Shown here piece after piece: positions 34,351 through 47,648 of a DNA stretch of 64,000 nt. How positions within the stretch are numbered: the first letter of the stretch is position 1; every line of letters begins with the position of its first letter. Both the position numbers and the translations under genes were made by a program. Location of the stretch: positions 1-64,000 of the forward strand of contig PLZA01000020.1 in the NCBI GenBank assembly GCA_003153505.1, in the 5' to 3' direction. The DNA is from Candidatus Dormiibacterota bacterium (GTDB lineage Bacteria; Chloroflexota; Dormibacteria; Aeolococcales; Aeolococcaceae). Under the pieces are notes generated by a model. The model saw nothing but the letters and a program-made list of their open reading frames with translations. It did not search any database and was not told the origin of the DNA.

Positions 34351-34377
34351 ATGAGCGAACGGCCGTTCGAGCGATGA
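34351..34377 (+). CDS. Leaderless 8-residue upstream ORF (MSERPFER)
   Basis: ATG 34351 to TGA 34375-34377. The start is at exact leaderless distance from a -10 element, and the stop overlaps the ATG of the DNA methyltransferase (ATGA). The methyltransferase has no Shine-Dalgarno sequence, so termination-reinitiation at this overlap would be the simplest way to translate it. Confidence 0.45.
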   Translation: MSERPFER

Positions 34378-35141
34378 TCGCCCGCACCGCCGGCAACGAC
34401 TCCGCGCCGGCGGCATCCGTCCGTGCGCTCGGCACCTTCGACATCCGGACTCAGGACTGCATCGACTTCCTTCGCGGCCTCCCCGACGCCTCAGTCGATC
34501 TGATCGTCACGGACCCGGCGTACTCGGGCATGAACCGTCACCTCCGTTTCGGGCACGGGCGCATCGTCGGCCACTACGGGAAACCCGACAACGACCGCTG
34601 GTTTCACGAGTTTTCGGACGACCCGGAGTCCTACGCGGTCTTTCTCGGAGAGTGCCATCGCGTGCTCCGCCAGGATCGCCACGTCTACATCATGTTCGAC
34701 ACCTTCTCGATGCTCTCGCTGGGCGCGTTGGTCCGCGACTTCTTCGATGTCAAAGGTGTCGTGGTCTGGGACAAGATGCACCTCGGCATGGGCCACTACT
34801 TCCGGCGGCGCCACGAGCAGATCGTGTTCGCCAGCAAGGGACGCCGGAAGCTCTCGCGCCGCGATCTGCCGGACGTGTGGGCGGTCCCTCGCATCCACCG
34901 CGCGGCGTATCCGACTCAGAAACCTGTGAAGCTCTTCGAGCTCATGGTGCAGGCAAGCGCCGAGCCGGGCTTCCTAGTCTGCGACCCATTCTGCGGCAGC
35001 GGGTCGTCCGGGGTCGCGGCGCTGCTCACGGGTTGCGATTTCATCGGCGCGGATGTCGACGCCCGTGCGGTGGACATCGCAGAGGATCGGCTGACCCGTT
35101 TCGTCGCTACGGGCCAGGATCCTCTCGAACCTGCGCGCTGA
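34374..35141 (+). CDS. DNA methyltransferase, beta class, orphan 2
   Basis: 255 residues. Motif IV is VTDPAYSGMNRH (a DPAY variant of DPPY, residues 43-46 region); motif I is CDPFCGSGSSGVAA near residue 205; AAYPTQKPVKLFELM is the usual connector. A very short target-recognition region separates them. Resembles phage and chromosomal N6-adenine or N4-cytosine methylases. No endonuclease is nearby. Translation appears coupled to the mini-ORF at 34351. Confidence 0.85.
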   Translation: MIARTAGNDSAPAASVRALGTFDIRTQDCIDFLRGLPDASVDLIVTDPAYSGMNRHLRFGHGRIVGHYGKPDNDRWFHEFSDDPESYAVFLGECHRVLRQDRHVYIMFDTFSMLSLGALVRDFFDVKGVVVWDKMHLGMGHYFRRRHEQIVFASKGRRKLSRRDLPDVWAVPRIHRAAYPTQKPVKLFELMVQASAEPGFLVCDPFCGSGSSGVAALLTGCDFIGADVDARAVDIAEDRLTRFVATGQDPLEPAR

Positions 35142-36566: not shown

Positions 36567-37085
36567 CTAGTCCTTCGAAGGGGTGGGCCGGTCGCTGGGC
36601 GGGGTCGGATTGTCCTTCGGCGGAGCCGTGCGGTCGTCAGGAGGGATCGTGCGGTCGTCAGGAGGGATCGGACGGTCGTCGGGTGGGATGTCGGTCCCCT
36701 CCGGCGCCATGCCCCCGAAACCTCCCATGCCGCCGAAGAGCCCGCCGAGCATCTGCTGGAACTGCTCGGGCCCGCCGAGGTCGTCCTGGACGCGTTCGAA
36801 CATGCGGGCCATCAACTCCTGGAGCTGGGGATCCTCGGAGAGCTTCTCCTGGAGGCCGCCGAGCTGCCCCATGAGCTGCTCCATCTGCACCTCCTGCGCC
36901 ACCTGCATGAGCACCGGCTGCGATGCCGCAGCCGCAACCACCTGCACCTGCTGGCGGATGACCTCGAATCCCTTGCAGGCCATGCAGGTGCCCTGGTGCT
37001 GGCACCGGCAGAGCCGGGACTTGAGTTTGTCGAGCTCCGAGTGGATACCGCTCAGGTCCACCCCAGGTTGAGAAGCGTCGCCCAT
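36567..37085 (-). CDS. Cys-rich protein with tandem IPPDDR repeats
   Basis: 172 residues from ATG 37085, chosen because TACGAT lies exactly 6 nt upstream; ATG 37154 would be the longer option. The N-terminal part has CRCQHQGTCMACKGF, a possible metal site with four Cys. The middle is Gln/Met-rich amphipathic helix (VQVVAAAASQPVLMQVAQEV). The C-terminus is four or five copies of a 7-residue unit (IPPDDRP, IPPDDRT, TPPSDRP) from imperfect 21-bp DNA repeats. No known family; conserved partner unknown. Confidence 0.55.
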   Translation of the reverse strand: MGDASQPGVDLSGIHSELDKLKSRLCRCQHQGTCMACKGFEVIRQQVQVVAAAASQPVLMQVAQEVQMEQLMGQLGGLQEKLSEDPQLQELMARMFERVQDDLGGPEQFQQMLGGLFGGMGGFGGMAPEGTDIPPDDRPIPPDDRTIPPDDRTAPPKDNPTPPSDRPTPSKD

Positions 37086-37091
37086 GGTGTG

Positions 37092-37097
37092 ATCGTA
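37092..37097 (-). promoter_or_regulatory. -10 element for the Cys-rich repeat protein
   Basis: TACGAT on the minus strand, 6 nt before ATG 37085; decides the start in favour of 37085. Confidence 0.5.
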
Positions 37098-37196
37098 GTG
37101 GACATACGGGTTCGCACCGCACGTTGCATCCTCGCCGGGATCGGGTATAGTCATTCGCAGACGGGAGGCCTCGCGCATCCCCGCGGTTGACGTCGA

Positions 37197-39923
37197 TTGA
37201 TCGTCGCCCCGCGTCAAAGAGCACCGCCCGAGGCCGTCCCGAAGTCCAGTAATTGCGCCGGTGCACAGGGTCACCGCGCATCCGAGGTTGACAGTCCGCT
37301 GATAGCCCCAGACCTCGCGCTCGATCGTCTGCACCTCATCGTGCCCGACGGCAGCGATGCCATGGTCGTCCTGGAAGCATGGGCGAATGGCGCGCAGCCC
37401 GGTGCCGATCCACGCACCGTGTTTGCGGAGCGCATCGGCGAGGTCGGTCACGTCTCCGTGTCGTTCGGCGACGAGGACCCGATCCAGCTGCGCCTTGATC
37501 TTCCCGACCTGGTCCTGCAGTGCGTCGCGCAGGCAGGCGATGACGGCTCTCGCGACCACCTCGGTCTGCGCGTGCTCTCCATCCGACCCACCGGCGGCCA
37601 GCCGGAGGGCGCGAAGCTGCTGACCATCACCACCCGCGAGCCGGTCGTGACCGCCGCCAACGGCGTGGTGAGCGACACTTTCCGCCTGCTCGACTGGCGG
37701 ATCTCCACGCAGCACGCGGCGCGCTCCGAGCAGCTCTACGCCACGCTGAAGCTGGTCGACAGCCTCGAGCGAGCAGAGAAGCAGCGCGCGCAGTCCCAGC
37801 GCACCCGTTTCAACGGCGCCCGTGAGTTCTGGCGCTGCCGAACCTGCCGGGCGCTGTGGCGCCCCGAGAGCCAGGAGCGCTGCCCGTCGTGCGGTCGCGA
37901 GTTCACCGATTCGGATCGGAAGTCTCCCGAGGTCGGCAAGGTCGAATTCCAGATCCCGGCCGGCGAGCCCATCAATCTGACCCCCGACGCGGCGGTGCTG
38001 ATCGAGCCGGACGACGAGACCAACTTCGTCGGCCGGGTTGCCCGCATCGACCACCTGCGGCACGTGGTCGAGATCGTCACGCGCACCTTCGAGCACTCGG
38101 GAAGCGAAGGCTACATCGCGCCCTCCTTCAACAAGGCGCTCTATCAAGCGAAACGATCGGTGCTCGCAGCCATCGCCACCAAGGACTTCGGCGTCGGACT
38201 GCTCGCCCAGGTGCTGGTGAGCCCGGAGACGATCGTTGCGCCCAAGGACGAATCGGACGCCGAATCCTCATGGCTGACCAGCGGGATGCGCCCGAACAAA
38301 CCGCAGAACCGGGCCGTCGGACTGCTCAGCCGGCTGAGCGCGGGACAGGCCGTCTTCATTCAGGGACCTCCCGGTACCGGCAAGACGACGGTCATCGTCG
38401 AGGCGGTCAAACGCCGCCTCGCCGCGAATCCCGATGAGCGGATCCTGGTCACGTCACACAGCAACCTCGCGGTCGACAACGCGCTCGAGCGGCTCGCCGG
38501 CACACCCGGCATGCGCGCCGTCCGCGTTGCCCGCGCCGAGCGAGTGCACGCCGCCGTCGACAAGTTCCGGTGCGACGACGAGGACGACCCGCGTCTGCTC
38601 GAGGCCAACTGCTACTTCGCGACCTGCGCGACGGCCGCGACGTCGGGCATCACCGACATGAACTTCGACATCGTCATCCTCGATGAGGCCAACAAGGCCC
38701 GCGCCGACGAGGCGCTCCCCGCGCTGCGACTCGGCAGAAGCCTCGCGCTCGTGGGGGATCACAAGCAGCTGCCGCCGGTCGAGGACGACGCGCTCTACGG
38801 CATCGTCGAGATCGACCCGGCGCTGGAGGATCTGGTCAACCGGAGCCTGTTCGAGCAGTGCTGGGACGGGGGGCTGCCGGCAGAGGCGCAGTGCCTGCTC
38901 ACCATCCAGCACCGCATGCACCCCGACATCGCGGCCTACGTGTCGGCGGCGTCGTACGACAGCCAGCTCGAGAACGCGCCGGAGGTCGAGGCGTACGAGT
39001 ACGTCACCCGGAAGCCGTTCCCGGTCGCATTGCACTTCGTCGATACCGAGGGGATGCGCGGCGGCCGCGAGCGCCGCGGCCCAGGTGGCGCGCTGCGCAA
39101 CGAGGCTGAGGTGCGGGTCGCGGCACAGGTCGTCCGCCTGCTCGATGAGCGCGCGCCGCGCGAGCTGAGCATGGCGGTCATCGCGATGTACGCCGAGCAG
39201 GTGGAACGCCTCCGCCAGGCGCTCGGACGCCGGCGTTTCAAGCGCACGGTGAAGATCGACACCGTCGACTCGTTCGAGGGCCGCGAGGAGGACATCGTGG
39301 TCATCTCGCTGGTCCGCTCCAACGAACGCGGGCGCATCGGCTTCCTCAGGGTCCCCAACCGCCTCAACGTCGCAATTTCCCGGGCGAAACGCCTGGTTGC
39401 CTGCATCGGTGACAGCGCGACCCTGCGCAGCGGTGACGAGTCGATGTACGGGATGCTCGTCGAGGCGTCGCGCTCGACCGGTGGGTGGCTCAGCGCCCTC
39501 GAACTCGTCTCGCAGCCCAAGCCGCGCCGTGGCGAGCAACGCCCTGGTGGGCAGCCGTCTGGAGGCGAGGGCGGCGATGAGACCGATCCCGAGCGGGCGG
39601 CGAAGCGCCGCCGCCGCCGCCGCCGCGGTCGCCGGGGTGCGCCTGCGCCCGTGACCGCCTCCACGGAAGCTGGTTCCGAGCCGGCGGCTGCCGCGCCGGC
39701 CGCCGAGGGTCAGCCGCAGGAAGGTGCTCAGCGGCGCCGCCGTCGCCGTCGCCGGCGTGGACGTGGCCGCGGAGCCGGCGCCGCACAGCCCGCCGCCGAG
39801 ACGGGAGATACCCCCGACACGATCACGGAAGGCCAGCCTGCTATCGCACCCCCCGCCGAGCAGGCGCCCGCCGAACAGCCGACCGTCGCTCCGGCCGCGA
39901 TCGGTGACGCCCCCGAGGTCTGA
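37197..39923 (+). CDS. UPF1-like SF1 helicase with zinc ribbon and Arg-rich tail
   Basis: 908 residues from TTG 37197; the true start is uncertain, as a TGA at 37188 closes the frame upstream and the only other early start is GTG 37341. Order: an N-terminal domain of unknown type, a CxxC zinc ribbon (CRTC..CPSC, residues 214-232), an OB-like segment, Walker A GPPGTGKTT (near 389), DEAN box (ILDEANKARADE), QHRMHPDIAAYVS, VDSFEGREEDIVVISLVRSN and NRLNVAISRAKRL. These are DNA2/NAM7/UPF1 motifs. The last 140 residues hold two runs of eight to ten arginines in an Ala/Pro/Glu tail, probably RNA-binding. Confidence 0.85.
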   Translation: MIVAPRQRAPPEAVPKSSNCAGAQGHRASEVDSPLIAPDLALDRLHLIVPDGSDAMVVLEAWANGAQPGADPRTVFAERIGEVGHVSVSFGDEDPIQLRLDLPDLVLQCVAQAGDDGSRDHLGLRVLSIRPTGGQPEGAKLLTITTREPVVTAANGVVSDTFRLLDWRISTQHAARSEQLYATLKLVDSLERAEKQRAQSQRTRFNGAREFWRCRTCRALWRPESQERCPSCGREFTDSDRKSPEVGKVEFQIPAGEPINLTPDAAVLIEPDDETNFVGRVARIDHLRHVVEIVTRTFEHSGSEGYIAPSFNKALYQAKRSVLAAIATKDFGVGLLAQVLVSPETIVAPKDESDAESSWLTSGMRPNKPQNRAVGLLSRLSAGQAVFIQGPPGTGKTTVIVEAVKRRLAANPDERILVTSHSNLAVDNALERLAGTPGMRAVRVARAERVHAAVDKFRCDDEDDPRLLEANCYFATCATAATSGITDMNFDIVILDEANKARADEALPALRLGRSLALVGDHKQLPPVEDDALYGIVEIDPALEDLVNRSLFEQCWDGGLPAEAQCLLTIQHRMHPDIAAYVSAASYDSQLENAPEVEAYEYVTRKPFPVALHFVDTEGMRGGRERRGPGGALRNEAEVRVAAQVVRLLDERAPRELSMAVIAMYAEQVERLRQALGRRRFKRTVKIDTVDSFEGREEDIVVISLVRSNERGRIGFLRVPNRLNVAISRAKRLVACIGDSATLRSGDESMYGMLVEASRSTGGWLSALELVSQPKPRRGEQRPGGQPSGGEGGDETDPERAAKRRRRRRRGRRGAPAPVTASTEAGSEPAAAAPAAEGQPQEGAQRRRRRRRRRGRGRGAGAAQPAAETGDTPDTITEGQPAIAPPAEQAPAEQPTVAPAAIGDAPEV

Positions 39924-39928
39924 TTGAC

Positions 39929-40513
39929 GTGAGCGATGCCGTCACGGTCTTTGTCCGCGCCGGAGATCCCGCCTCCGACGCAACGCTTCGCTACCTCGAC
40001 CAGCGCGGCATCACCTATACGAAGCGCGACGTCCTCAGCGATCCCTCGGCGACCGCGATCCTCTTCGGCAGGCTCGGCAGAGTGGTCGTTCCCGTGGTCC
40101 AGGTGGGAGAGCGGCTGCTGGTCGGCCATGACCCGGTGCAGCTGGCGCGCTTTCTGCCCCGGGTGGACACTGAGGATCAGCACGTCTCATTCGGAGCCTC
40201 GGTGCGGACGGTGACCAGCGAGATCGCCACTGCGAAGCAGCTCCCGGCGACCTATGGCGTCGAGGTCGGCCAGGTCAAGCCGGAGTCCCCTGCGGAGGCG
40301 GCCGGGATCCTGCCCGGCGACGTGATCACCGGCATCGGTCCGTACACGGTGAACGGCGGTGCCGACCAGTTCCGGCGCGCCGTGTCGCTCCGCCAGCCCG
40401 GCGACACCATGCTGCTCACGATCTGGCGCGAGGGCGATATCTCGGAGCTCGCCGTGGTCTTCCCGGCCGAAGCACCCGCCGACGTGCCCGCCCCGGAACC
40501 GCCGCCCGACTGA
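39929..40513 (+). CDS. Glutaredoxin-like domain fused to a PDZ domain
   Basis: 194 residues. The N-terminal 75 residues follow the glutaredoxin fold (VTVFVRAGDPASDATLRYLDQRGI, then the cis-Pro VVPVVQVGERLLVGHD), but the redox CxxC position reads AGDPASD, so it cannot do thiol chemistry. A PDZ domain follows (VKPESPAEAAGILPGDVITGIG, ending REGDISELAVVF). No signal peptide or membrane helix, so a cytoplasmic PDZ. Five nt after the helicase stop, probably the same operon. Function unknown. Confidence 0.75.
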   Translation: MSDAVTVFVRAGDPASDATLRYLDQRGITYTKRDVLSDPSATAILFGRLGRVVVPVVQVGERLLVGHDPVQLARFLPRVDTEDQHVSFGASVRTVTSEIATAKQLPATYGVEVGQVKPESPAEAAGILPGDVITGIGPYTVNGGADQFRRAVSLRQPGDTMLLTIWREGDISELAVVFPAEAPADVPAPEPPPD

Positions 40514-40561
40514 GCTGGGGCGACGGCTCACAGCCGCACCGGCACCGGCGTTTGGTATGCA

Positions 40562-41044
40562 GTGAGCACGATGAGACCGACAGCGCTGCCTCCGTTCCAA
40601 TTGGTGTTCGACGACCACGCGCAGGCAGTGCTGAACTTCCTCACCGGTGCCGTTGGCGCGTCGGAGGCCGAGGACTGTTTCCAGGAGACGATGCTCAGCG
40701 CCCTGCGCGCCTACCCGCGGCTCGGGGATTCCTCCAACCTGCGCGGCTGGCTGTTCACGATCGCGCGGCGCAAGGCGATCGACGCGTATCGGGCTCGGGT
40801 ACGCCGGCCGGTACCGGTCGCCGATCCCGACCCCGGATCCGCGCTCGACACGCACCCCGACAGCGACGACGGGCTCTGGGATCAGGTTCGGAGCCTTCCG
40901 AGCAAGCAGCGCAAGGCTGTGGTCCTCCGCTACGCCGGCGACAGGAGCTATCCGGAGATCGCGGCGGCGATGTCGACCACGCAGGACTCGGCGCGCCAGA
41001 GCGTGCACGAGGGTCTGAAAAAGCTCAGAAGGGAACTCCGATGA
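40562..41044 (+). CDS. ECF-type sigma factor
   Basis: 160 residues with sigma2 (AEDCFQETMLSALRAYPRL and NLRGWLFTIARRKAIDAYR) and sigma4 (LPSKQRKAVVLRYAGDRSYPEIAAAMSTTQDSARQSVHEGLKKL in blocks). No anti-sigma gene is adjacent. Its stop overlaps the ogt ATG, a pairing seen repeatedly in Actinobacteria and Chloroflexota, which suggests a role in an alkylation or stress response. GTG 40562; ATG 40571 is an alternative. Confidence 0.88.
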   Translation: MSTMRPTALPPFQLVFDDHAQAVLNFLTGAVGASEAEDCFQETMLSALRAYPRLGDSSNLRGWLFTIARRKAIDAYRARVRRPVPVADPDPGSALDTHPDSDDGLWDQVRSLPSKQRKAVVLRYAGDRSYPEIAAAMSTTQDSARQSVHEGLKKLRRELR

Positions 41045-42989: not shown

Positions 42990-43025
42990 GTGGAGAGTAC
43001 GGCGGAGTTTTCCGAGCCACGATGA
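42990..43025 (+). CDS. Leaderless 11-residue upstream ORF
   Basis: GTG 42990 to TGA 43023-43025 encodes MESTAEFSEPR. The start lies at leaderless distance from TACGAT; the stop overlaps the ATG of the GGDEF-EAL gene (ATGA). Same design as 34351 and 52399. Confidence 0.45.
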   Translation: MESTAEFSEPR

Positions 43026-45625
43026 CGCCTGTCGTGCGTCGTCTCAGGGCCGGTTGGACCCGGCGGTCGCGCATCGACACGCGACTCTGGGTTCTGGGCG
43101 CCGTCATGCTCGCCGCGGCCGTGGCGCTCTGGGTGGGGTATGCAGCGTCGCTGCCGGCGTTCGCGCCGCCCAACCTGCCCTGGTGGGTCTACGCCATCGG
43201 ATTCTTTGCTGCCTCCCGCCTCGCGTCGATCGACAGTCCGCGCCGCGGCACCCAGGCGATCACGCTCGCGGCTGCTCCTTTCGTGATCGGGCTCTTCCAC
43301 GCGACGCCACTCGAGCTGCTCGCCGGCTATGCGGCCGGCACCGCGGCGGCCGCCGCGACCCGACGGCCGCTGGCCGTGCTCCAGACCGGTTTCGACATCC
43401 TCCGGTTCGCGGTCGTCGGCGCGATCGGGATCTGGGCCTTTCGAACGATCGCGGGAAGCCCGAACCTTCCCGTCTGGCACAGCGCGATCGCGGCCATCAT
43501 CGCCACTGCAATCACCGTGCTCAGACGCGGAGTCTCCGAGAGCATCGTGCTCCGGCCGCGCGACCGAGACTCGTGGATCAACGTCGCCAACCACCTCCGG
43601 GCCGCGTATGTGGCAGCTGCCGCGTCGACATGCATCGGGCTGATCGCCGTCCGGCTGATTCCCGTCGATCGTCTCGCGTTGGTGCCGCTCACGATCGTCA
43701 CCTTCGCCGTCCTCCTGACCCATCGGGCGTGGGTGCGCGAGCGATACGACCACGAGGCAGCGGAATTCCTGATCGGCGCGGTCGATGCCCTGGCCGGACG
43801 CGAGCTCGAGCCGTCGATCGTTCTGCTCCTCAACCGCGCCCGCGCCATCTTCCACGCGGATATGGCGCAGCTCACCGTGTTCCCGTCGCAGCCGGCCGAG
43901 AAGGCGTTTCGCACCACCGTCCGTCACGGCCAGCCCAACGAGGTGATGGTGGCGCTCGGCCTCGGCGAGCTCGACGACGTGCTCGAAGCGGAAACCGCCG
44001 GGGTCATCGTGCGCGCGGGCAACGCGGACGACCCGAGCTCGCAGATGCTGGCGCATCGCGGCGTGGGTGAAGCGATGGTCGCACTGCTGCGCGGTGAAGC
44101 GCGGATGATCGGCAGCCTGATGGTGGGGGGCCATCTCGACGCGCGCTCCTTCGACCTGCGCGACCTGCGTCTGTTCCGCACACTTGCCACCCGGACGACG
44201 GCCATCCTCGAGAACAGCCGCATGGAACGGTCGATCGCCCGGCTCACCGAGCTGCAGGAGCAGCTGACGCATCAGGCGTATCACGACTCGCTCACCGATC
44301 TCGCCAACCGCTCGCTGTTCGGTCAGCAGATCGACCATGCGCTGCGGCGCAGCGCGGAAGGCACCGCGAGTGTGGCGGTGATCTTCCTCGACATCGACGA
44401 TTTCAAGGGAGTCAACGACACGCTCGGCCACGCCGCCGGCGATGCGCTCCTCGTCGAGGTGGCGTCGCGGATTCGCGGGTGCCTGCGCCGTCCGGACACC
44501 GCCGCCCGCCTCGGCGGGGACGAGTTCGCGCTGCTGATCGAGGGAGTCGACAGCGCGATCGAGGCCGAGCACGTCGCGCGGCGCGTGCTCGACGTGCTCC
44601 GGGAGCCGTTCACGGTTTCGGGGACCTCGGTGATCGTGCGCGCGTCACTCGGCATCGCTGTTGCAGACAAGAATGACGCTAACGCGACGATCCTGATGCG
44701 CCAGGCCGACGTCGCCATGTACGTCGCCAAGGGCGCCGGCAGGAACCGTTACGTCCTCTTCGCGCCGGGGATGGAAAGCGACGTCGTGCAGCGGCGCAAG
44801 CTTCGTGGCGAGCTCGAGCGCGCGATGGAGCTGAACCAGTTCATCCTGCACTACCAGCCGGTCGTCAACCTGATCACCGGTGAGATCACCGCGGTCGAGG
44901 CCCTGGTGCGCTGGCATCATCCGCTCCGCGGGATCGTCGCTCCGGGAGAGTTCATCGGCGTCGCCGAGGAGAGCGGCCTGATCATGCAGCTCGGAGAATT
45001 CGTGCTGCGCACCGCCTGCGCGACGACGCTCCAGTTCCAGCGCCTGCAGTCGACGCCGCTCGCCGTGTGCGTCAACGTCTCGGTGGTACAGCTCAACACG
45101 CCGACATTCGTCGAGGACGTGCTCGCCATCGTCCAGGAGACCGGGCTCGCCCCCGATACCCTGATCCTCGAGCTCACCGAGTCGATGTTCGTCGAGGACA
45201 CCGCGATCGTGACCGCGAAGCTCGAGGCGCTCCGCAAGGCCGGGATCCGCGTCGCCATCGACGATTTCGGCACCGGCTACTCGTCGCTGAGCTATTTGCG
45301 CCGGCTCCCCGTCGACATCCTGAAGATCGCCAAGCCGTTCGTGGACGATCTCGCCGACGGCGCGGAGGAGGACTTCACCCGCGCCATCGTCACCATCGCG
45401 GATGCGCTCCAGCTGCACGTCATCGCCGAAGGCATCGAGGCGGCGTCGCAGGTGGGCAGGCTGCTCAGCCTCGGCTGCCTGGCCGGGCAGGGATACCACC
45501 TCTGCCACCCGTTGCCCCCGGTGGGGATCGAGCAGCTGTTGCGCCATGGCGGGATCGACCGGGCCAGGCTCGAATCCTTGCCCGACCCGTCGGAGCAGCT
45601 CGTGCCGCTGCGCTTGCTGGGGTAG
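43022..45625 (+). CDS. Membrane GGDEF-EAL c-di-GMP protein 1
   Basis: 867 residues. Seven or so N-terminal membrane helices (to about residue 245), a GAF-like region (250-410), GGDEF (about 430-590; LGGDEFALL with the Mg site in FLDIDDFKGVND) and EAL (about 605-860). The EAL domain keeps VEALVRW, NVSVVQL, LELTES, IDDFGTGYSS, LKIAKPF, IAEGIE and the GQGY glutamine, so both cyclase and phosphodiesterase look intact. Translation appears coupled to the mini-ORF. Followed by a paralogue. Confidence 0.92.
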   Translation: MTPVVRRLRAGWTRRSRIDTRLWVLGAVMLAAAVALWVGYAASLPAFAPPNLPWWVYAIGFFAASRLASIDSPRRGTQAITLAAAPFVIGLFHATPLELLAGYAAGTAAAAATRRPLAVLQTGFDILRFAVVGAIGIWAFRTIAGSPNLPVWHSAIAAIIATAITVLRRGVSESIVLRPRDRDSWINVANHLRAAYVAAAASTCIGLIAVRLIPVDRLALVPLTIVTFAVLLTHRAWVRERYDHEAAEFLIGAVDALAGRELEPSIVLLLNRARAIFHADMAQLTVFPSQPAEKAFRTTVRHGQPNEVMVALGLGELDDVLEAETAGVIVRAGNADDPSSQMLAHRGVGEAMVALLRGEARMIGSLMVGGHLDARSFDLRDLRLFRTLATRTTAILENSRMERSIARLTELQEQLTHQAYHDSLTDLANRSLFGQQIDHALRRSAEGTASVAVIFLDIDDFKGVNDTLGHAAGDALLVEVASRIRGCLRRPDTAARLGGDEFALLIEGVDSAIEAEHVARRVLDVLREPFTVSGTSVIVRASLGIAVADKNDANATILMRQADVAMYVAKGAGRNRYVLFAPGMESDVVQRRKLRGELERAMELNQFILHYQPVVNLITGEITAVEALVRWHHPLRGIVAPGEFIGVAEESGLIMQLGEFVLRTACATTLQFQRLQSTPLAVCVNVSVVQLNTPTFVEDVLAIVQETGLAPDTLILELTESMFVEDTAIVTAKLEALRKAGIRVAIDDFGTGYSSLSYLRRLPVDILKIAKPFVDDLADGAEEDFTRAIVTIADALQLHVIAEGIEAASQVGRLLSLGCLAGQGYHLCHPLPPVGIEQLLRHGGIDRARLESLPDPSEQLVPLRLLG

Positions 45626-45632
45626 CGGGCAG

Positions 45633-47648
45633 ATGTCCTCGTGGCTCGCCGCCCTGGTGCTCTCGGTGGTCGCCGTCGCCATCGCCGGCATCTCGTGGGC
45701 CGCGGTTCGCCGCGAGAAGGCCCGGCTCGGGTTCCTCCACTCGACGTCGCTGGGGCTTCTCGAATCCCGCGACCTCGAGGCCGCATCTGTCGACGTGCTC
45801 CGGCGCGCGAGCATGCGCTTTACGGCGGAGTGCGCCGAATTGACCCTGATCCCCGAGACCGGCACGGCTGCGGCCTTCCGCACCACGGTTCGTGGGGGTG
45901 AGCCCGTCGACGTCATGCGCTCGACCGACCTGGAGGACGACGAGGACGGCGCGCTCACGCCGCCGATCTACGGCGTCGTCCACATCGCCGAGGCGGCCGC
46001 CGACCCGTGGGTCGCGCGCCTCTGTTCGCGGCTCGGAGTTTCCCGCGGGCTCGCGGTCACCCTGCGCTACCGGACCCGCACCGTCGGCTACCTGGGGCTC
46101 GGCATGCGGGCGTCTGAAGCGCGCGAGCCTCGCGCCGACGACCAGCGGCTCCAGGAGTTCGCGGATCTGGTGGCCCTGACCATCGAGCGGAGCCGCCTTC
46201 AGGAAGGGCTGCTCAGGCTTGCCGCCCTCCAGAGCGAGCTCGCCGACCGCGCGTTTCACGACCCGCTGACCCAGCTTGCGAACCGCGTGCTCTTCATCGA
46301 TCGCATCGAGCGGGCGCTCCTCGAGCGCGACCCGGAGCGGCACGTGGTCAGCGTCATCTCGGTCGATCTCGAGGACTTCCGACGGATCAATGCAGAGCAC
46401 GGACACGCGACCGGCGACTCGGTGCTCGTCGAGGTTGCCCGGCGCCTCCACGAGTGCCTTCGCCGCACCGACACCGCCGCTCGACTCGGTGGAGACGAAT
46501 TCGCGCTCCTGCTTCCCGAGGTGTCGCATCCTCGTGAGGCGGAGCTCATCGCCCAGCGTGTGGTCGAGGCACTCGCCACGCCGATTGCGACCGAGGGTGC
46601 CACCGTGTCGGTCCGGGCATCGGTGGGTCTCGTCTGCGCGAGCGCCTCGGACGTCTCGGCCGCGGTGCTGCTCCGCCACGCAACGGCGGCTGCTCAAGAG
46701 GCGCGCGAGGCCGGGTCCGGCACGTATCGCATCCACGGCGGTACGGGGGCGGGCTCTGCAGACCCTGACCTGGCGAAGGAGCTCGAGTCGGCGCTGAACA
46801 AGGGCGAGCTGGTCCTCCATTACCAGCCGATCGTGGAGTTGCGCACCGGCAAGATCCTCGGCGCTGAGGCATTGGTGCGCTGGCAGCACCCTGAGCGTGG
46901 CCTGATCGCGCCGCTGCACTTCCTGCCCGTGGCAGTGGAGTGCGGGCTCATTGATCGCATCCAGGAATACGTGATGCGCACCGCCTGCGAGCAACTCCGG
47001 CGCTGGCAGCACGCATATCCCGCCACACCGGAGCTGGCCATGTCCGTCAACGTCGCCGCGGGCGAGCTCCGCGGCGGCACGCTTGTCGACCGCGTGACCC
47101 GGTGCCTCGCCCGGGTCGACGTCGACCCGGGGTGCCTCATTCTCGAGGTCACCGAGAACGCCGTGCTCGAGAATCTCCACGGTGCCATCGCCACGTTCGA
47201 CGCCCTGCAACGAGCCGGCGTCCATGTGGCGGTCGACGACGTCGGCACCGGGTACACATCGCTCGCCTACCTCCGGCGTCTGCCCATCGACATCCTCAAG
47301 ATCGCGCGTCCCCTGGTCGCGGAGCTCGGCGATCCGAACTCGAGCGGGGAGCTGGCACGGACGGTCGTTCGCCACGGCGAGGCACTGCGCCTCGCGCTGG
47401 TTGCGGAAGGCGTCGAGCTGCCGCTGCAGGTCAAGCGTCTCAACGAGCTCGGCTGCGGCATGGCGCAGGGTTTCCTGCTCGCGCGCCCCTGCGAGGCCGA
47501 GGTGATGGAGGGACTGCTCGGCAAGGGCGGGCTCGACCCGCGTCTCTTCGCCCGCCCGGCTGCCGCACCTCGTCCGGCGGCAAAGCGCAAGCCGCCGCGG
47601 CCTCGGCGCGTACCCTCGTCGGGTGCCCCAGCGCGAAACTCTGCGTGA
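45633..47648 (+). CDS. Membrane-anchored GGDEF-EAL c-di-GMP protein 2
   Basis: 671 residues. One N-terminal membrane helix, a GAF-like domain (about 35-195), GGDEF (215-370, LGGDEFALL) and EAL (390-640). EAL motifs: AEALVRWQHP, NVAAGEL, LEVTEN, VDDVGTGYTSL (Val in place of Phe), LKIARPL, VAEGVE, MAQGFL. The GGDEF substrate segment is VDLEDFRRINAEHGH, a little diverged. The Pro/Lys/Arg tail (RPAAKRKPPRPRR) overlaps the next gene. Same domain order as its upstream neighbour, so an old tandem duplication with a reduced sensor. Confidence 0.9.
   Translation: MSSWLAALVLSVVAVAIAGISWAAVRREKARLGFLHSTSLGLLESRDLEAASVDVLRRASMRFTAECAELTLIPETGTAAAFRTTVRGGEPVDVMRSTDLEDDEDGALTPPIYGVVHIAEAAADPWVARLCSRLGVSRGLAVTLRYRTRTVGYLGLGMRASEAREPRADDQRLQEFADLVALTIERSRLQEGLLRLAALQSELADRAFHDPLTQLANRVLFIDRIERALLERDPERHVVSVISVDLEDFRRINAEHGHATGDSVLVEVARRLHECLRRTDTAARLGGDEFALLLPEVSHPREAELIAQRVVEALATPIATEGATVSVRASVGLVCASASDVSAAVLLRHATAAAQEAREAGSGTYRIHGGTGAGSADPDLAKELESALNKGELVLHYQPIVELRTGKILGAEALVRWQHPERGLIAPLHFLPVAVECGLIDRIQEYVMRTACEQLRRWQHAYPATPELAMSVNVAAGELRGGTLVDRVTRCLARVDVDPGCLILEVTENAVLENLHGAIATFDALQRAGVHVAVDDVGTGYTSLAYLRRLPIDILKIARPLVAELGDPNSSGELARTVVRHGEALRLALVAEGVELPLQVKRLNELGCGMAQGFLLARPCEAEVMEGLLGKGGLDPRLFARPAAAPRPAAKRKPPRPRRVPSSGAPARNSA
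47611..47616 (+). promoter_or_regulatory. -10 element for the inositol-phosphatase family gene
   Basis: TACCCT lies 6 nt before GTG 47623, inside the 3' end of the preceding gene; leaderless arrangement allowing independent transcription. Confidence 0.4.

Follow-up and report, generated by a model that had tools for sequence, protein, structure and literature searches.

We analysed a stretch of 64,000 nucleotides (nt; hereafter the window, whose positions are used throughout) from the Candidatus Dormiibacterota bacterium assembly GCA_003153505.1 (contig PLZA01000020.1, labelled C71), a genome (G000) of 3.96 Mb that is 92.5% complete. Two plus-strand genes lie side by side in it. The upstream gene encodes a superfamily 1B (SF1B) helicase of the UPF1/IGHMBP2 type, 874 residues long when read from a CTG codon (37299..39923), and the downstream gene encodes a cysteine-free protein of 194 residues in which a glutaredoxin (Grx) domain is fused to a PDZ domain (39929..40513). 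Relatives were drawn from the family to which the window belongs (f1), from its sister family f2, which is part of the same order, and, for the Grx-PDZ protein, from other Chloroflexota classes. The pair had been singled out in a first-pass annotation; that observation is confirmed, and the interpretation offered with it is partly supported.

The identity of the helicase is supported by sequence and structure. Pfam returned AAA_11 (E = 1.8e-34) and AAA_12 (E = 1.6e-45), and at an E-value of 0.01 all matches were limited to the ATPase/helicase core. Among PDB sequences the closest relative is IGHMBP2 (3.8e-37) and the second is UPF1, with Dna2 and Sen1 ranking lower, which upholds the UPF1-type SF1B core proposed earlier; the IGHMBP2 family model TIGR00376 scored 217.3 bits, below its cut-off of 348.9. 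An AlphaFold2 model (predicted local distance difference test, pLDDT, 76.6; predicted template modelling score, pTM, 0.71; second half poor in parts) matched IGHMBP2 (4b3f) from about residue 136, counted here and below from the CTG at 37299, with Z 26.1 and a root mean square deviation (rmsd) of 8.6 over 502 aligned residues, and UPF1 chains matched at Z 23-24. In this alignment the stalk and a beta-barrel stand ahead of RecA1. The barrel (model strands 212-275; 37932..38123) lies inside the IGHMBP2/UPF1-aligned range and is what we take to be the "1B" barrel of UPF1-type helicases. Walker A (GPPGTGKT, 38364..38387) and motif II (DEAN, 38682..38693) are invariant in an alignment of 23 helicases, the window's among them. 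The same is true of C180, C183, C195 and C198 (23/23), the cysteines of a zinc-ribbon-like CxxC-(11)-CxxC motif between the stalk helix and the 1B barrel (37836..37892), which the first-pass annotation had read as a ribbon.

Two further features of the helicase lie outside the core. Model residues 1-135 (37299..37703) form a region that is conserved across f1 and f2. No Pfam family exceeded its cut-off there, the structure-match lists were dominated by the core and barely covered it, and its best PDB sequence match, a viral glycoprotein entry, was chance-like (E = 0.0031). What stands of the earlier claim of a new-looking N-terminal domain is that the region appears unclassified at the sequence level. 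The tail carries two Arg-rich blocks (39603..39638 and 39732..39772). Of the tails of 28 relatives from f1 and f2, 26 are complete and two run off the contig; Arg/Lys runs of 5-11 occur in all 26, as in the window, in support of the Arg-rich tails noted at first. Shuffling of the window gave an expectation of 0.13 runs of seven Arg codons where four were found, three of them overlapping, and a genome-wide search gave 11 forward sites at 7 separate places, against 6 for a control pattern. The tails are probably disordered. Homology makes an RNA-processing role plausible, with RNA the favoured candidate substrate, and would fit DNA too; 5'-3' unwinding of RNA or DNA is expected of the UPF1-like class and is putative here. 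RNase E/G gave no match in the 92% complete source genome.

A profile of the N-terminal third of the helicase (A2), run on 400 genomes of the phylum, matched 24 of them, 12 from f1 and 12 from f2. In a named genome collection it matched 29 loci, all in metagenome-assembled genomes labelled Dormiibacterota-type, Chloroflexi or plain bacterium, and the next match inside the source genome is 30% identical (E = 2.5e-16). The helicase was found in 28 of 32 f1 genomes; those without a match (G004, G009, G012 and G014) are 58-89% complete, and the copy of G012 is truncated by the start of its contig (L055). An order-specific, vertically inherited SF1B helicase of the UPF1/IGHMBP2 type is the best explanation of these data.

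The start of the helicase gene had first been placed at TTG 37197. Each of the six retrieved relatives from the same genus has a Trp or an Arg codon there, and some other relatives have stops between it and the conserved part of the protein; the start was therefore moved to CTG 37299. CTG begins the conserved protein in the window and in 30 of 31 homologues with a readable start, the exception being CTC (three loci with an uncovered start were skipped). A Shine-Dalgarno-like sequence, GAGGT in f1 (37284..37288 in the window) or GGAGGA in f2, precedes it by 7-12 nt. An upstream stop lies only 9 nt before the CTG in L051 and L054, 18 nt in L052 and L053, and 30-36 nt in L136, L139, L042 and L132, and there is no ATG, GTG or TTG between these stops and the CTG. 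The next GTG lies 42 nt inside the frame, after the conserved LIAPDLALDRLHLI, in the f1 loci listed. Against this assignment, an in-frame TTG occurs 12-33 nt upstream in L040, L044, L047, L049 and L141, and an ATG 57 nt upstream in L035 and L038. Initiation factor 3 discriminates against such starts (infC, pcnB). CUG is the simplest reading common to the homologues and the likely start codon. No promoter or terminator patterns were found in 36900-40700.

The downstream protein was assigned to PDZ_2 (1.2e-11) and Glutaredoxin (1.9e-6) by Pfam. In its structure model (pLDDT 85.5, pTM 0.51), residues 4-78 (39938..40162) match cGrx1 (7c12; Z 13.2, rmsd 1.3, 73 aligned), and residues 82-184 (40172..40480) match the HtrA/DegP-type PDZ domain of DegP (3otp; Z 15.9, rmsd 2.1, 98 aligned). 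The Grx domain is YruB-like, with a TIGR02196 match of 1.9e-9 and 37.9 bits that is below the cut-off, and it scored 23.1 bits against the 66 required by the Uxx-star model NF041212. D-P-A-S (39965..39976) replaces the U/C-P-x-C active site, in agreement with the redox-dead Grx-PDZ fusion described at first. We aligned the window protein with 22 of the 28 f1 relatives and with 36 relatives from other classes. All 23 f1 rows read D(P/A)x(S/C), with Asp where a catalytic glutaredoxin has the first Cys or Sec (selenocysteine) of CxxC/CxxS, and Asp is found wherever the active site is covered among all retrieved f1 loci; of 13 Asp codons checked, 10 are GAT and 3 are GAC. The earlier statement that this glutaredoxin lacks its cysteines holds for the window protein, which has none, but 11 of the 23 f1 rows keep the second Cys of the motif at position 16. 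The Pro taken as the cis-Pro is retained in 59/59 rows. The ratio of non-synonymous to synonymous substitution (dN/dS) is about 0.03-0.25 in seven pairs, one of which has saturated dS; the Grx-PDZ gene is therefore a working gene under purifying selection.

Most f1 genomes carry it (29 of 32). It was missed in G018 (98% complete), G015 (71%) and G009 (68%), the last of which yielded no helicase either. The absence from G015 proves nothing because the contig ends 230 nt past the helicase core; the helicase of this genome seems to be record L079, judging from the matching place.

A profile of the f1 Grx-PDZ proteins (A1), run on the other Chloroflexota classes, revealed where such a protein may have come from. 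Among the matches listed there were full-length homologues, with E-values down to 8.9e-33, whose frame contains one TGA. From these matches we retrieved the 39 places outside f1 whose alignment begins within the first 7 positions of the profile, plus a fortieth place; 36 of the 40 are full length, a sample and not a census. Grx and PDZ are collinear over the full length, with 24-37% identity to the window protein in 11 relatives (alignment A6), and the TGA falls on the first residue of the CxxC motif. In the 36 full-length relatives this position is UGA/Sec in 29 (UPHC, UPWC and UPYC in 9 each, UPFC in 2) and Cys, as CxxC, in 7. We therefore describe the window protein, which has DPAS in place of a Sec or Cys active site, as a redox-dead branch of a Chloroflexota (seleno)Grx-PDZ family. 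The f1 rows form one clade in the unrooted tree, with a support of 100/100 and a branch length of 1.67.

The TGA forms are taken as putative selenoproteins. Where a selenocysteine insertion sequence (SECIS) would lie, a stem with 7 or more pairs (stem length 7-8, loop length 3-5, onset 15-21 nt from the codon's first base) was found in 28/29 U forms, 1/7 C forms and 3/23 D forms, by a criterion set after the hairpin had appeared in a folding-energy comparison. In 18 of these 28 U forms the best stem stands at the identical place with a 3-nt loop. The folding energy after the Sec codon was below the within-gene control mean in 18/29 U and 1/7 C forms, a comparison that does not clearly separate the U forms; the positioned stem alone sets them apart. 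SelB was above cut-off in 16/16 tested genomes of other classes, with Sec and Cys forms alike, and so does not distinguish the two. As an observation in its own right, loci L142-L177 outline a Chloroflexota Grx-PDZ selenoprotein family whose members combine UPxC with a SECIS-like stem, Cys replacing Sec in some of them. The standalone Grx proteins of the sister family were also considered as selenoproteins and rejected: their active site is Cys, and the lone TGA falls past the end of the gene.

Asp is the odd one out in a redox fold, and we therefore infer that the change ran from Sec/Cys to Asp, on a tree that is unrooted. Loss of the selenocysteine machinery was tried as the cause and rejected. 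In the source genome SelB scores 264 bits against a cut-off of 242, and a tRNA-Sec of 66 bits lies about 1.3 kb away (L201, G000:C1:67500-75000). SelB is above cut-off in 6 of 11 tested f1 genomes; in the other five the tRNA-Sec scores do not exceed 48.5 bits, a level that other tRNA matches in these genomes reach as well, although three pass the 47-bit threshold. Asp occurs in f1 genomes with and without SelB. Since several f1 genomes, the window's included, retain the machinery, its loss alone cannot explain Asp. Another explanation is that the Grx domain is changed rather than dead, and that Asp13, together with Ser or Cys at position 16, carries out a different chemistry or serves as a binding site for a metal, glutathione or a thiol ligand. 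An Asp that is invariant in f1 while position 16 varies (Ser 12, Cys 11) speaks for such a role, but the window protein contains no Cys, and we know of no catalytic role for Asp at this position of a glutaredoxin. We consider this explanation improbable.

The two genes appear to form a tight operon. In the window Grx-PDZ starts five bases past the helicase, and a GAGGT within the last helicase codons (39915..39919) is its likely ribosome-binding site, a layout of GAGG, stop and short gap that recurs in genus relatives and suggests co-translation. Among 28 f1 loci retrieved, the contig covers both places in 23 and ends too early in 5; in 23/23 the helicase immediately precedes Grx-PDZ in the same orientation. 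For 22 pairs the stop-to-start gap ranges from -8 to 53 nt, whereas in the remaining one the helicase frame is broken. Flanking genes drift sooner than the pair within f1: over the 28 loci, some of them short, up153 lies no more than 2 kb from the helicase in 12, and an extracytoplasmic function (ECF) sigma gene does so in 11.

Other observations weigh against a functional pair. No Grx-PDZ neighbour was present in 8/8 f2 helicase loci with visible downstream DNA (two further loci stop at the contig end); the following gene is 3HCDH in L135, and the open reading frame (ORF) examined in L134 has no Pfam match. A class search of 110 genomes, with E-values up to 1e-12, gave no match outside f1 that spans both Grx and PDZ. 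Within f1, G018 keeps up153 and the helicase (L141) and has no Grx-PDZ. The helicase C-termini are not conserved, in contrast to a shared PDZ ligand; a ligand of this kind was rejected because the last f1 residue is V, A, G, D or E. Moreover, the neighbours of the Sec/Cys relatives, examined as 20 proteins from 15 of the 40 loci, are unrelated and include MutS, POR subunits, HAD, DnaJ, SRP54 and an aminotransferase; they show no inherited link with this helicase. The helicase is older than the pairing because f2 has it without Grx-PDZ. Among 200 bootstrap trees of the helicase, 99% require two changes of Grx-PDZ presence, which makes a loss in G018 the simple account, although the tree does not resolve the base of f1. 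The first-pass annotation had named separation of the genes in relatives as evidence against its proposal; such separation occurs outside f1, and inside f1 the 98% complete G018 lacks Grx-PDZ.

These observations would also fit an operon of convenience, in which Grx-PDZ landed behind the helicase once and borrows its transcription and translation for an unrelated job. The helicase without Grx-PDZ in f2 and G018, the varied neighbours of the Grx-PDZ relatives and the persistence of DUF72 close by in 20/28 loci all favour this, but the pair is retained in every testable relative, even where identity falls to 67% for the helicase and about 50% for Grx-PDZ, and the 12-kb locus L052 holds the pair and none of the others among the eight usable window genes asked. 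We regard this scenario as possible, though somewhat doubtful. The reading that we prefer, at a probability of about 0.5, is that the two genes are co-translated and that the Grx-PDZ pseudoenzyme is a non-redox adaptor or regulator of the helicase complex. The UPF1-type core would move along nucleic acid held by the ribbon and the Arg-rich tails. The partner would be a former (seleno)glutaredoxin-PDZ whose Sec/Cys became Asp throughout f1, with selection still acting on its Grx fold, cis-Pro and PDZ domain. Incapable of thiol exchange, it would offer Grx fold and PDZ as binding surfaces, perhaps in physical contact with the helicase; a role as binding adaptor is probable because the reactive residue has been lost. 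The fuller proposal, that a selenoprotein lineage passed from Sec/Cys to Asp to become the dedicated PDZ adaptor of a UPF1-type RNA helicase that is itself kept low and regulated by its conserved CUG start, is rather unlikely as a whole.

Further genes surround the pair. A divergent Cys-rich protein (36567-37085, minus strand; CxC..CxxC) has no Pfam match, is present in 16/28 f1 loci and in L141, and could share regulation with the helicase. An N6/N4 DNA methylase-type protein lies at 34374-35141 (Pfam 2.7e-27). Two neighbouring same-strand GGDEF-EAL proteins are listed at 43022-45625 and 45402-47648; the start of the second is probably further in, since these ORFs overlap by more than 200 bases.

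Each module of the pair is of a known kind. The helicase shares the RecA core, 1B barrel and stalk with IGHMBP2 (Smubp-2) and UPF1, and differs from them in its N-terminal region, the ribbon between stalk helix and 1B, and the tails with Arg runs. Bacterial UPF1-like helicases are known from defence systems, among them CoCoNuT CnuH (PMC11090510). The UPF1-like core is common to CnuH, Mokosh MkoA and the window helicase, on which the PADLOC model of MkoA scores 340 bits with its best stretch over the core. Unlike these systems, the window helicase is spread across two families of an order and has Grx-PDZ as its partner, and no defence partner genes were found among the subset of neighbours that was run through Pfam. 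The Grx fold is shared with YruB (TIGR02196) and Uxx-star (NF041212) (seleno)proteins, from which the window protein differs by Asp at the Sec/Cys site and by the fused PDZ. The Sec relatives L154 and L149 exceed both cut-offs, L143 that of YruB only, and the Cys relative L167 neither. The Trx7/PDZ selenoprotein family NF041199 likewise combines a redox fold with PDZ; this longer model (390 positions) matches only the PDZ part of the window protein, at 21.9 against a cut-off of 300. With DegP/HtrA PDZ1 the window protein shares the PDZ fold, but it has no protease domain by Pfam. A 2026 review (PMC13188914), in the part available to us, lists Sec-Grx, Uxx-star and Trx7/PDZ families and no Grx-PDZ entry, and a 2006 census (PMC1794560) gives 3 selenoproteins in Chloroflexi. 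In the open literature we found no paper on Chloroflexi glutaredoxin-PDZ selenoproteins, or on Dormibacterota helicases or selenocysteine.

Taken together, the novelty lies in the redox-dead branch and in the fact that it is paired with this helicase. The Chloroflexota Grx-PDZ selenoproteins are a further addition, as no NCBIfam row listed for four scanned relatives names glutaredoxin-PDZ. A bacterial helicase with a conserved, likely CUG start codon is added as well, and the pair offers a testable example in which a redox enzyme based on selenium or cysteine may have turned into a non-redox partner.

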